Part shown: positions 2,750 through 63,866 of the stretch, piece by piece | Layout of the letters: each line of letters begins with the position of its first letter | How positions within the stretch are numbered: the stretch's first letter is position 1 | Position numbers and translations under genes: made by a program | Assembly (NCBI GenBank): GCA_963921795.1 | Contig: OY997643.1 | Span: 12,907,043-12,971,042, forward strand | Length of the DNA: 64,000 nt | Direction: 5' to 3' | Source: Nannobrachium achirus | Taxonomy: Eukaryota > Chordata > Actinopteri > Myctophiformes > Myctophidae | The notes under the pieces: model-generated | What the model saw: the letters and a program-made list of their open reading frames with translations, nothing else | The model's database searches: none | Told to the model about the DNA's origin: nothing

Positions 2750-4800
2750 ATCGTCATATGGTGTGACATGAAAATAATTGTTCATAAAATGAAAATGGAG
2801 TACATCTTTCTTAAGTTACTCACTTTATCAAAGTCCTTTATCATAACTAACCAGTGATCCACTATAGTTTTTTGAAAATTAATTATATCTGTATATTTTT
2901 TTCATAATCGACACTCTGTGTGAGGCCCATGTTCATGATCTTACAACATATTTTAAATGTATTCTGTCAAAACTTTCTCTAAAATTACACAAATATTTGT
3001 GACTCTTCCTGATAATATTCTCTATGTAATCCATAAACATTTTTTTGGTTTAATCATTAATAAAGGTATGATTTTTCACTATTTGGAATGTCACACCAAA
3101 TGATTTAGTGTCACACCGTATGATCATATCTTCATGTGTCAAAGCAAACTGTGTTTTAACCTACCTATTAGTGAGTACTGAACTTTACTGATTGATTAAA
3201 CAATTACCCAGGATAACATGGCCTTAATATTTCTGAACAGGATATTATTGTAGGGCTTTAACATGGGATAAGAAAGAATTGTAGTAGTAGATGGATGATG
3301 AGGATGTGCACAGGAATGCTACGCACACCTAAGTCTTCTGCCGGCCCACGGCAGAAGGATCCTAAAGAGACAATAAGGCGCATAGCCACACTTGGAGCCA
3401 AGGCAACATTTTATTAACACCAATTAGTGGAAACAGAACTCAGCATTCAGGTAAATTGCTTTTTTCCGAAGTCTCCTGAACTTGAACACAGCATTTTGTG
3501 TTGAACAAATGTAATTAGGAATCGTGACATTACACCACATCTCCACTAGCTAAAGAGTGCTGGGTTGCGCAACTCCGAAAATAGCTGATCTACAAGCTCT
3601 CGCAGCACAACGTGTTGAGAGCTTGTAGATCAGCTATTTTCGCTAGTTTTGTCTCGGGTCCTACCTTAACACTGTCCACTGTCCAGTCCAGTGAGTGAAA
3701 GTACAAAAGTATTAGATCAGATTAGATTATACATTTAGACTGTATTGTACATCAGCCAGTCGTATTTGGTGAGCTGCCTTGTTGCGGTTCTGCTATGCCA
3801 CAGACAACCTCCTGCTCTTCGTAGAAAATGCAGTCTCGCCCCTTTGGCTCCTCTCTCCTTGCTGGGTCATTGTTTAGTTTCTCCCTGTACTTTCTCGTTC
3901 TCTCAGCACTTGTCATTTTCCAGCTGACAAAAGAAAATGGAATGTATAGTTTAAGACAAAGAGAAAATATTGTTTAGATTGAAACAATATGTTAAGGTTT
4001 CTGTGAAGGGGTTTCTGCTCTGTCTGATGAATTTGAAGTATCACTGAATGAATCTAAATTACATTTTATGTAAAAATGTTTAAAACAAATGTTTAAATGT
4101 ACAAAAGAAACATGGAACTTTGTTATTTATTGTTATATCTGTAGTTAAATACAGTATAAATCATATGGTGTGACAATCAAGTCATATGGCGTGACAAGCA
4201 GACATGTCACACCATTATGATTAAGTGTCACACCATATTACGTTTTCTGTATTTAGGTTTACCTTGAGGCTACTATGTACACATTAGCATGCTAACAGCA
4301 TGCTAGCTATAACAAAGCAACCTAGATCTACATGGAAATATGACCAAAACTTCAAATAACTTAAGCTTTTTTTAATGAAAAGGTGTCACACCAACAGACA
4401 TCCAAAGTGGTGAGTTTGTCAAAGTTTCAACAAGTTGGCATTTCATGAAAATGTTAAAATCATAACTCACCTCAGACACCTGTCTTGCAGTTGTGCTGGG
4501 AGTGCTGAATAGCCTTACAGAAGAAGGACCTCTCTAGCCAATAGGTGTCCAAATAATTGCCTGTTTAATTTGTCCAAACTAGTGTCACACCAAATGATTT
4601 TGGTTTGGGGGACAAAATGTTTTTGATCAGAAATGACTGAAAACATTATGCTTTGACTTTGAAAAGATATAGGCTCACAAATAGACATTTTTTTTTTGCC
4701 TAAATTCATTTTCAAATGATTTTTAGCAATTCTTTTTCTTAGTTTTATTCAAGTTCCCACTTTGAGATACAAGGCCAGGACAGTCACACCATATGAGTTT
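2750..4800. repeat. region with scattered GTCACACCA(A/T)ATGA motif
   Basis: AT-rich sequence without genes. A motif close to GTCACACCATATGA occurs about ten times on both strands, for example near 2755, 3090, 3112, 4163, 4182, 4205, 4224, 4384, 4582 and 4782. The spacing is irregular, so this is not a simple tandem array. Confidence 0.6.
3576..3642. repeat. core hairpin, stand-alone
   Basis: The arms run from CGAAAATAGCTGATCTACAA and close on its reverse complement, around a short centre GCAGCACAACGT. I see no terminal repeats of a host element around it. Confidence 0.8.
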
Positions 4801-4974
4801 TGCCATGTTTGGTTGAAAATTCTGAAGAAATGAGGAATGAAATGTTTTAATCTTGAGTAAGTTCACATAAAGCTTAATGTCCTGCACAATATTCAGAAGG
4901 TTTTTGACAAATATATTTTTTATTTATACATGTTTGACACCGAGGACAGCGAAAACGTTACGTCACGTCACCCA

Positions 4975-5013
4975 CCCACACGCACACGCACACGCACACG
5001 CACACGCACACAC
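4975..5013. repeat. (CACACG)n microsatellite
   Basis: Alternating CACACG units, followed by short CTAT units. Confidence 0.85.
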
Positions 5014-5442
5014 ACTATCTATCTATCTTTTTGTTCCTGTTTTATTAACCTCACTCTTATATCACACGCGCTGCACACACGTACACACCCAATGGAATCC
5101 AATCTGCCATCTGTAGCTTGTCATACCCAGGGAGCTAAGAGAAGAGAAGAGAGAGGAGAGGAGAGGAGAGGCGGGAGGAGGAAGAGGAGTGTGAGGGAGG
5201 CTCTGACAGTGGATCAATAGTTGTGTTTGTGGCGGAGGCTCCCAGAGGAGCAGAGCAGTGTATGAAACGCTGAAGGTCCTCGAGGAACATTCCCAGTGTG
5301 TTTAGCCCCCGAGCCAAGGTTAAACCCTGCACAAAGGCACCGCCAAAACCTCAGCCGCGATGCCATGCCTGGCCTGCCTCCCCCCGGGGCTCCACGCACA
5401 TACGCAGGCACGCACGCGCTCGCTCGCTTGCACAGTGTAGGG

Positions 5443-5840
5443 CAGGGTTCCCCAATAGGTGGCCAGCGGGCCATTTGCGGGGCTACTGTCTGGCCCACAC
5501 CAAGCCCAGTAATAATGGTGGTAAAGAGCAGCAACAACACTAGTGTATCGTCGTTGTCGGGTGGAAATCTCGTATCTCCAAATTTGTACGTTCTTTCGCA
5601 GTAGGTGCGAGGCGTTGTGTACTTGTAGATCTGCTGTTTTCACTAGTTTAAATCATTTTTAAAATGATAAATGCAAAACGAACGGTTTTGGACATACAAG
5701 ATTTTCACCCGACAACGACAATATCTGAATTGTCCCTGGAGTAGCGGGAACGCCACCGTCGCCCCCTGCAATGTTGTGGCCCTCGGCTTGGTACCCTAGA
5801 CATAATTCGGCCCTTGGGGAAAACTAATTGGAGAACCCTG
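5443..5840. mobile_element. hAT-like element, CAGGGTTCCCCAA ends
   Basis: The ends are CAGGGTTCCCCAA and its near-inverse TTGGAGAACCCTG. It is flanked by a perfect 8-base direct repeat GTGTAGGG (5435-5442 and 5841-5848), the target duplication length typical of hAT transposons. No transposase frame is present, so it is non-autonomous. A second element occupies its middle. Confidence 0.85.
5546..5723. mobile_element. family F palindromic element nested in a hAT-like element
   Basis: The ends TATCGTCGTTGTCGGG and CCCGACAACGACAATA are inverted copies. The interior carries the right half of the core hairpin (about 5605-5646, ending CTTGTAGATCTGCTGTTTTC). It lies wholly inside the element at 5443-5840, so it is the later arrival. 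Confidence 0.75.
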
Positions 5841-6254
5841 GTGTAGGGCCACCAGTAACCTTGCCTCACCAGGCTTTCTGGGGGAAAGCCTGGTGTTCGT
5901 TCACAACAGGCCGTTTGGTTTCCACTACTAGAAGAAGCGGCGTCGCTTTGATTTGGTTCCCCCCGTTTGTTTCCCCAATCCCTATTAAAATGCTCGAGTA
6001 GCTTAGTGTAGTCTTGCCAGTTGCTACGAGTTGGACTAAAAGATGCATATACCAAACAATTTTTTCAAAAGCAAAACTACTCTGCATCAAGGAGTAGAGT
6101 TTGTGGGACAAGAAAAGAAAAAGAAAGAATGGAAACCAAAGAGTATCTACATATTTACACGCATAGCATACATCAATCCATGAGGTTTAGACATGCGTGA
6201 GCATAGCAGGTGGTACACTGTTCATAATAAAGACATTAAGGTGCAAGAAGAGAT

Positions 6255-62633: not shown

Positions 62634-62897
62634 TCCTAAGAGCACAGAGTAGAGTCAGCTTTATTAGCATACACAGGTGAGAGGTGAGGCAATCAGCTCT
62701 GTCGGCATTGTTATGCTGGCTGGCGCTAACGATGGCCGCCGAGGAACGTGACATGTGTGAGAAATGCCCTCCTGTTCTGTTCTTACTGGGACGCAGAGGG
62801 CCGCGATGAAGACAGAGCGGCCGCGGGGACCAGCTGCGCTAATAACACAGTCCCTTCCAAAGGCCTTAAAAACTGGACAGGTACAGTACGTGCTGCT

Positions 62898-63414
62898 TTA
62901 ACCCATTTAGGCCTAGAATTATTGAATGCTTTAACCAGTGCCGCGGTGCGAGCTTGTAGATCTGCTATTTTTGAAAAAGTCGTAAAAATGTGTGCAAATC
63001 TTTGAATATGTGTATTTTCAAAGCGAACGTTTGTAACTCAAATTTTGCTTCTGGGGGGTCCCTGGAACAAATATGTTGAATGGGGGTCCTTGGCCAAATA
63101 AATATATTTTTGGGGGTCCTTTACATGAAAAGGTTTGAGAACCACTGACATAGTAGTCTCTCAAGAACAGGCTAACTGAGCTCCATTTAAGTGAAAAGGA
63201 CCTTTTCTTTGACGATGGCTGGCCAGATTGCTGACATAGAAACACAGGTTTTAAAAAAAACCTTAGAATGATTCAAAAGACACTTATAGAATTGGGTCAA
63301 AATTCAAATTTTCACATTTTTTCAAAAATAGCAGATCTACAAGCTCGCAGCGCTGCGAGCTTGTATATCTGTTATTTTTCAATAGTTAAAGCAGTCAATA
63401 ATCCTAGGCCTAAA
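62898..63414. mobile_element. family A element, left hairpin deleted on one side
   Basis: TTAACCCATTTAGGCCTAGA to AATCCTAGGCCTAAATAAGC. At 62937 the left hairpin has only its right arm (GGTGCGAGCTTGTAGATCTG). Confidence 0.8.
63324..63379. repeat. core hairpin, right hairpin of family A
   Basis: AAAAATAGCAGATCTACAAG CTCGCAGCGCTGCGAG CTTGTATATCTGTTATTTTT; the tip is a perfect palindrome. Confidence 0.9.
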
Positions 63415-63470
63415 TAAGCATATAGACCGGGTAGTCGGGAACGCATTATTTTATGCTTTAACTATAAAAA

Positions 63471-63544
63471 AAAATAGCAGATATACAAGCTCACAGCGCG
63501 GCACCGAGTGCCGCGCTGCGAGCTTGTAGATCTGCTATTTTTTT
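63471..63544. repeat. core hairpin, left hairpin
   Basis: AAAATAGCAGATATACAAGC and GCTTGTAGATCTGCTATTTT, tip GGCACCGAGTGCC. Confidence 0.92.
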
Positions 63545-63804
63545 GAAAAATCGGGAAAATGTGTGCAAGTCTTTAAATATTTTTGACCCGATTCTATGAG
63601 TGTCTTCTAAATCCTTCAAAGTTTTTGTTTTTTTGAAAAACTATGTCAGTGGTTCTCAAACATTACAAGGACCCCCAAAATGATATGTATTCGGCCGCGG
63701 ACCCCCATCTCAAAATATTTCGTTCCAGAGACCTCCAGAAGCAAATCTTTAGTTACAAATGTTTGCTCTCTATTCAAAGATTTGCACACATTTTCACGAT
63801 TGTT

Positions 63805-63866
63805 CAAAAATAGCAGATCTACAAGCTCGGAGCTCACAGCGTGAGCTTGTAAATCTGCTATTTTTC
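63805..63866. repeat. core hairpin, right hairpin, rearranged tip
   Basis: AAAAATAGCAGATCTACAAG CTCGGAGCTCACAGCGTGAG CTTGTAAATCTGCTATTTTT. Confidence 0.88.

Follow-up and report, generated by a model that had tools for sequence, protein, structure and literature searches.

The window analysed here, a stretch of 64,000 nucleotides from Nannobrachium achirus (C6:12907043-12971042 of assembly G000, which comprises 1,658,514,493 bases in 564 contigs), raises the question why one short hairpin lies inside so many mobile elements whose ends look different. A sequence-only reading of the window had offered two answers, namely an independent mobile unit that enters other elements or a functional module gained repeatedly. 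We followed the hairpin through the window and through stretches and loci taken from the same genome outside it (labelled L0xx), so that the scope is one genome, with no relative, of which ~0.02% was read. The hairpin is one homologous unit throughout. We tentatively favour the explanation that it is an old palindromic cassette with a history separate from that of any host, passed between transposon shells by nesting and exchange and amplified mainly by hAT transposition, because the unit is homologous, its hosts mostly are not, and a hairpin-centred inner block is found in different shells.

That the stem occurs more than 50 times in 64 kb could be confirmed: the quoted 18-mer GCAGATCTACAAGCTCAC has 70 matches in the window at up to three mismatches, where dinucleotide shuffles lead to an expectation of 0.06, and the 18-nt arm TAGCAGATCTACAAGCTC has 81 at up to four mismatches (reversed control 0). 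The accompanying figure of about 40 copies with both arms was too high; 28 paired hairpins are found with up to four mismatches per arm, and 29 with a 20-nt arm and up to six. In a comparison set of 20 arbitrary 10-kb stretches (189,816 readable bases, ~0.01% of the genome) the same arm search gave 150 matches (control 0), corresponding to ~0.79 arms per kb, with the window ~1.6 times denser. The exact 16-mer GCAGATNTACAAGCTC is present 127,759 times in forward and 127,800 times in reverse orientation (255,559 in all; control 0), and 7,092 hairpins have two exact 16-nt arms in facing orientation (control 0), so that the sharing noticed in the window is genome-wide. Scaling up from the 20 stretches, and thus by extrapolation from ~0.01% of the genome, suggests ~1.3 million arms and ~0.4 million hairpins. 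A search for the stem outside this genome returned 0 matches in viral contigs and 0 in prokaryote genomes, which has no bearing on other fish. The 150 arms of the comparison set fall into 92 in inverted pairs, 14 in direct clusters and 44 single ones, a distribution that does not fit a satellite, since all arms but those 14 are dispersed. The arm core is also seen as direct repeats within minisatellites (L011 1112-1314, L007 595-720, L022 7542-7714 and L002 ~59-450).

The hairpin has a well-defined architecture. It is exactly 63 nt long in 36 of 83 distinct paired hairpins, with a 30-bp stem and three unpaired nucleotides, and across the window and the 20 stretches the arms are separated by 27 nt in 33 of 74 hairpins and by more than 32 nt in none. 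Four examples folded as single-stranded DNA gave energies of -38.9 to -47.2 kcal/mol, with z of -13.9 to -16.4. The 18-nt arm is near-constant, whereas its neighbours on either side, the inner 12 bp of the stem and ~6-10 bp beyond the hairpin, vary by family and are largely still paired. Among 16 selected copies 85% of cells pair, and two-sided changes are found in 25 of 40 pairs, where shuffles give 12.6 and none of 500 comes up to the observed value; at the outermost six positions the match is 64% with a copy's own partner and 30% with that of another copy (0 of 5000 permutations). In some types the symmetrical change extends into the arm itself (ACATGC in b, GACCTCC in g), and type A is exceptional in that its outer flanks differ past the T run. 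Template-switch mutations create and mend hairpins, as described in PMC8794818, and such a process would account for symmetrical double changes in the arms, from which we consider that template switching probably maintains arm pairing. It is a mutation process rather than a mobile unit and gives no account of the sequence that is common to the hosts. The inner stem is CpG-rich and the arm is without CpG, so that the contrast in constancy between the two may be partly mutational; low mutability for want of CpG and protein binding are both possible reasons for the constancy of the arm. No convincing family was returned by an Rfam scan of the window, its sole match above the gathering threshold being an insect flavivirus element on the hairpin at 10809-10897 (-), with 41.8 versus 41 bits, which is probably a chance match; beyond this near-threshold match no curated family pointed to a microRNA or other known RNA.

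The elements that carry the hairpin were sought as exact 8-bp duplications with short inverted ends around it, yielding 28 candidates, some of them clearly false; the same scan at random positions found a candidate in 34 of 516 cases, hATs being common. Clear hAT-type ends are CAGTGGTTCTCAAC, CAGGGGTCTTCAAC, TAGGGATGGGACGA, TAGGGCTGTCACGA, CAGGGACGTGCWGG and CAGGGTTCCCCAAT, with CAGGGGCGTCACAA less clean, and an exact 8-bp target-site duplication (TSD) is present in six of these seven end kinds. For the CAGGGGCGTCACAA kind, a copy in L015 has an exact TSD but doubtful ends, and the window copy a TSD with one mismatch. A further host, at L026 8833, has near-identical copies, and its TAGGCCTGGGGCGG end was read as hAT-like. 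Classed by their ends alone, three hosts do not look like hATs, namely a TATCCAC..GTGGATA miniature inverted-repeat transposable element (MITE), the 205-bp palindrome T and the TTAA-ended family A, where pairs of hairpins in facing orientation, as inverted repeats, are frequent. With their 8-bp duplications, YAGGG/CAGTG ends, lengths of mostly ~300-460 bp and absence of genes, the majority of hosts resemble ordinary hAT-type MITEs, and the finding concerns the common core and not the hosts; we know of no MITE families described as having one internal hairpin in common across different ends. A potential source of transposase is at hand, as a search with PF05699 gave 1,653 first-look candidates, of which 150 were scored, all above the cut-off, in open frames of up to 1005 amino acids. 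Hosts named in the sequence-only reading were in large part recovered: the hAT-like elements at 56260-56689 and 59841-60301 have exact 8-bp duplications and that at 10260-10951 has one with a single mismatch, and the TGACGTCA palindrome was located at 24435-24639 with the hairpin at its tip. For the CAGTGGTGGAAAAA repeat, an end is present at 14186 and 25126, but for the one near the hairpin at 14390-14430 a second end with a matching duplication was not found. Two arrangements of host sequence were seen in passing: in L042 (G000:C20, ~16.4352 Mb) a TATCCAC element abuts the ACGACGAT end of an e-type block, so that the elements lie side by side, and L005 92-1309 is a tandem array whose ~31-bp unit is an end piece of hAT family a.

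Alignment of the host families over their full length outside the hairpin had been named as the sign that the sharing is common descent. With the hairpins masked, 15 host copies gave full-length matches within families only and partial overlaps between families, and whole-element descent thus fails to explain the sharing. The further claim that the termini share nothing goes too far: most of the ends are of hAT type (starting YAGGG or CAGTG), and some are related: families a and b align over their last 63 nt at 77% (E 5e-5), and families c and h over their first 70 nt at 77-79% (E 3e-7 to 8e-9). The remaining overlaps between families are an e-type inner block and matches at chance level. Moreover, one hairpin flank is common to a and h and another to the e and f types, flank cluster C2 facing C5 (family a, three hairpins) and C10 (family h, three) across the hairpin, and C9 facing C8 (e) and C21 (f), one each. 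The hairpin lies 222 nt from the related end in c and 109 nt from it in h, and was consequently not simply inherited in place.

The e-type block is nested in two shells. L018 6767-7212 and window 5443-5840 have the same inner block ATCGTCGTTGTCGGG with its mirrored end around the hairpin, in opposite orientation, and the two shells are hATs with different ends and different duplications. Elsewhere nesting is suggested by the flanks common to several families, and we infer the order of these events. A second inner block, TTAACCACTTGAACC..GGTTCAAGTGGTTAA, of 187-201 bp, encloses the hairpin in three copies of family a. Its motif GGTTCAAGTGGTTAA lies outward of the hairpin with up to three mismatches in 21 flanks from 10 clusters, with 4 matches for the reverse complement and 0 for the reversed control; at up to four mismatches the respective counts are 34, 6 and 8, and at up to five 54, 18 and 42. 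When 77 hairpins from the window and the 20 stretches were compared with a 319-kb sample, both flanks recurred for 48, one flank for 15 and none for 14. Since both flanks recur for 48 of 77 in so small a sample, most hairpin copies were spread by their hosts.

We therefore propose, on the cassette explanation, that an inner element built around the hairpin (the ATCGTCG or the TTAACCACTTGAACC block, for example) would end up inside another element, mostly a hAT-type MITE, whose new outer ends would then amplify the nested hairpin while the old ends erode and the hairpin persists. Template switching at the hairpin would copy one arm onto the other, keeping the arms palindromic while they diverge, and the hairpin would later decay by central deletion. 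This last step is observed. An exact-flank pattern for family b, with gaps of 3-63 nt allowed, has 3,387 and 3,363 copies, and among the first 100 copies listed the gap is 63 nt in 35, 14-62 nt in 65 and 3-13 nt in none; because the gaps of 14-62 nt are widely spread, as deletion predicts, central deletion is common. A search with the joined flanks of family b returned 1,887 candidates, the best 40 of which span the joint with at most ~15 extra nucleotides. Ten hairpin-free copies from this search, best-scoring and hence biased to short inserts, comprise two that read exactly ATTGTGAAAATTTTCACAAT, three near-exact ones that differ by the change or loss of one or two letters, three with clear stem stubs and two ambiguous ones. 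The TATCCAC family has five copies with the hairpin (L048 and L053 being the same place) and four without the full hairpin, which retain the left arm in L041, L042 and L049 and the right arm in L050; a one-armed ancestor was considered for this family and dropped, given that L050 keeps the right arm only and L049 ends within the loop region. In the T family one copy is without the left half and one without the right arm.

Several observations weigh against the cassette explanation or limit it. The sequence-only reading had proposed to compare hosts with and without the hairpin at the same site; this comparison revealed many deletions, and a pre-insertion state could not be proved for any of the hairpin-free copies of families b, a, TATCCAC and T. 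As the inverted symmetry extends 6-10 bp beyond the hairpin, entry into pre-existing palindromes has to be considered, and the two family-b copies with exact joints, which could be either deletions or empty sites, are also expected from insertion into a palindrome. We infer the direction of transfer, because no host family has clearly ancestral hairpin-free copies, and because the hairpin sits at one place within the families examined, each family could have had it from birth. The related ends of a and b and of c and h bring the seven hAT end kinds down to about five groups, and descent may be partly common, given that GGTTCAAGTGGTTAA lies on the outer side of the hairpin in ~10 flank clusters. 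The 16 copies on which arm symmetry was scored were hand-picked, with types A and d present twice, and the shuffles keep their relatedness. Finally, nesting alone gives no account of two hairpins that lie without a shell at single-copy sites.

These two are among the 14 hairpins without a recurring flank. Nine of the 14 were searched genome-wide, leaving out L016 9447, L022 845 and those at 3582, 14390 and 24684 of the window; as in all our genome-wide DNA searches, the best 40 candidates were scored per query. Two proved to be in single-copy DNA, two matched only themselves above ~104 bits, two had one repeated flank and three lay in repeats. For L026 4826-4889 and L025 8521-8584 the single first-look candidate was the locus itself, and with 40 candidates scored it is only for these two that a match to self alone is fully valid; for L018 6080 and L020 2711 it holds above ~104 bits. 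The hairpin can therefore exist where no shell is recognisable. In L026 (G000:C19, ~19.0048 Mb) both 18-nt arms are perfect, the loop measures 4 nt and the 10-bp inverted repeat on the outside contains one mismatch; this hairpin ends 110 bp upstream of the start codon of VPS36, the first exon of which matches two solved VPS36 chains at 1e-12. That of L025 (G000:C18, ~16.0085 Mb) has decayed further. A comparison of the 40-nt flanks of these two hairpins showed no exact direct repeat of at least 6 bp, and hence no target duplication of that size at the hairpin's own edges.

Such sites bear on the idea that the hairpin moves by itself, in the manner of bacterial REPINs, a trans-acting enzyme recognising the folded arm pair as a hairpin and placing it into new DNA, other elements included, perhaps with a preference for palindromes. 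We regard this as possible, though doubtful. PMC3116915 describes REPINs as doublets of repetitive extragenic palindromic (REP) sequences that form hairpins and presumably owe their spread to RAYT tyrosine transposases, and the occurrence of our arms in inverted pairs, direct clusters and singly is like that of REPs there. In common with REPINs, the unit has 16-18-nt arms over-represented as inverted pairs that form a hairpin (92 of 150), a preferred spacing peaking at 27 nt, single arms as likely remnants, tandem clusters and no genes; it differs in its vertebrate-like nuclear setting, in that most copies lie within transposons, and in its 30-bp stem with a 3-nt loop. Self-movement is further favoured by the two hairpins in single-copy DNA with the two self-only ones, and by the exact palindromic joint without a hairpin in 2 of 10 family-b copies. 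Paired arms are also nearer to consensus than single ones, with means of 1.48 (n=158) and 1.94 (n=54) mismatches at the cut of four, but the pairing criterion itself selects well-preserved arms. Against self-movement stand the missing direct repeats at the two single-copy sites, the recurrence of both flanks for most hairpins in ~0.02% of the genome, and the fact that no supporting enzyme is known, no search for one having been made. That ~0.4 million copies, by extrapolation, are those of a self-moving REPIN-like palindrome which entered single-copy DNA and the middles of transposons and so made them carriers is a statement we consider doubtful, leaning to unlikely.

Other palindromes offer comparisons too. 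Zebrafish Angel elements and the internal inverted repeat of Tol2 are palindromic sequence from fish, found also inside a hAT element, and are in that respect like the hairpin. Double-hairpin elements of organelles are short mobile palindromes. So are the GC clusters of yeast mitochondria, which merge with one another and are constrained in structure according to PMC4478555. These occur in organelle DNA, in contrast to the present unit, which is nuclear: the 20 contigs sized measure 58-90 Mb, the genome has nuclear genes, and direct repeats of at least 6 bp were absent, although repeats of the size of AG or ACT would fall below detection. By its VPS36 first exon and its HSCB gene the genome reads as vertebrate-like and nuclear, the latter being an open frame at 22479-23396 of the window with an HSCB C-terminal domain (HSCB_C, 5e-16) and a sub-threshold DnaJ domain. 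The claim that no described element behaves in this way has to be narrowed accordingly, as mobile palindromes are known (REPINs, PMC3116915; GC clusters, PMC4478555), but in the portions of the literature accessible to our search we found no report of such a unit common to nuclear transposon families.

A selected functional module, in which a protein binds the arm, or the hairpin transcript is cut into small RNAs or serves as an RNA-processing mark, so that its carriers spread better, appears unlikely to us. It would fit the arms being the most constant part, with inner and outer stem changing in pairs, the preferred arm spacing, the tandem arrays of arm cores and the perfect-arm copy upstream of VPS36, but the first of these may be mutational, given the CpG contrast, and the RNA families offer nothing convincing. 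With 65 of 100 listed family-b copies damaged, there is no constraint on single copies; and because families were found through the hairpin, losses of it go unseen, which also counts against this reading. Plain descent of all hosts from one ancient MITE, the hairpin of which persisted as the ends became too divergent to recognise, we hold to be very improbable. Most hosts are indeed of hAT type, alignments of 63-70 nt at 77-79% join the ends of a to b and of c to h, and GGTTCAAGTGGTTAA recurs beside the hairpin. Yet constraint in a transposon normally falls on its ends, the TATCCAC, TTAA-ended and T families are unlike hATs by their ends, the same inner block occurs in two different shells, c and h differ in hairpin distance despite their related ends, and two hairpins are at single-copy sites. 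A TTAA-ended ancestor of all hosts was tried and rejected, the motif scans having found the motif with a, A and some single flanks and not with b, c, e and g. The two answers offered at the outset are partly supported, by the failure of whole-element descent and by the signs of transfer, whereas simple insertion is without a proven empty host; the cassette is the explanation that we tentatively prefer.

Table 1. Hairpins and host elements in the window (window coordinates).
Feature	Position	Remarks
hAT-type host (CAGGGTTCCCCAAT)	5443..5840	TSD GTGTAGGG; inner block ATCGTCGTTGTCGGG; one recognised arm, 5619
hAT-type host k (CAGGGGCGTCACAA)	10260..10951	Flanks GGTCCAGG/GGCCCAGG, one mismatch; two hairpins and one single arm
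hAT-type host a copy	36604..36974	TSD TTTTAGAG; ends alike 11/14; arm at 36713
hAT-type host a copy	54890..55622	TSD ATCTACTT; arm at 55456
hAT-type host b (CAGTGGTYCTCAAC)	56260..56689	430 bp, exact TSD CACTACAC, hairpin inside
Host b hairpin, shortened	56388..56440	53 nt; 10-bp outer inverted repeat ATTGTGAAAA/TTTTCACAAT
hAT-type host a (CAGGGGTCTTCAAC)	59841..60301	461 bp, exact TSD GCCTAAAC; hairpin at 60095 is damaged
Short copy with family-a ends, no hairpin, middle gone	11781..11957	Flanks CAATACAG/GCATACAG, 6/8 equal
Family-a inner block TTAACCACTTGAACC..GGTTCAAGTGGTTAA without hairpin	46479..46625	CCAAAAAACGTTCAGC at hairpin site; deletion or empty
Palindromic MITE T (AGCTGAATTCC..TGACGTCACTGG)	24435..24639	205 bp, hairpin at tip; many 98-100% matches elsewhere
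Hairpin of element T	24511..24573	
Full 63-nt hairpin, A family	33620..33682	
Full 63-nt hairpin, A family	33991..34053	TTAACCCATTTAGGCCTAG-like end at 33943
A-family stretch	62898..63404	TTAACCCATTTAGGCCTAG at 62898; arm at 62950; hairpin 63329-63374
Full hairpin, A family	63475..63537	
Shortened hairpin, A family	63811..63860	
Full hairpin, f type	38129..38191	GCATCAAAAG..CTTTTGATGC
Full hairpin, d type	45204..45266	Flank clusters as at L021 8558
Shortened hairpin, g type	45557..45597	Both arms with GACCTCC
Full hairpin	53704..53766	One a-type flank
Hairpin	3582..3636	Flanks not recurring in the 319-kb sample (sample only)
Hairpin	30306..30367	Left flank self match only; right flank repeated from ~20 nt outward
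Hairpin	55771..55833	Left flank self match only; right flank repeated from ~6-26 nt outward

The window also contains long near-perfect palindromes with arms of 87-173 nt (42830-43142, 48046-48693 and 23853-24048), in which the arm scan found no core, and a large minisatellite at 18000-19250, the open frames of which read QYHGQYHVSIM.

In the usual view the interior of a MITE is filler and its ends are conserved, whereas the elements described here keep their middle and differ in their ends. At ~0.79 arms per kb in the sampled stretches, the hairpin unit will probably be broken up or misnamed when the repeats of this genome are annotated. Should the hairpin prove to be self-mobile, we would know of no earlier REPIN-like element in an animal nucleus. 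The hairpin is a tracer of how MITE families arise from one another, and a test case for the spread of palindromes in a nuclear genome.

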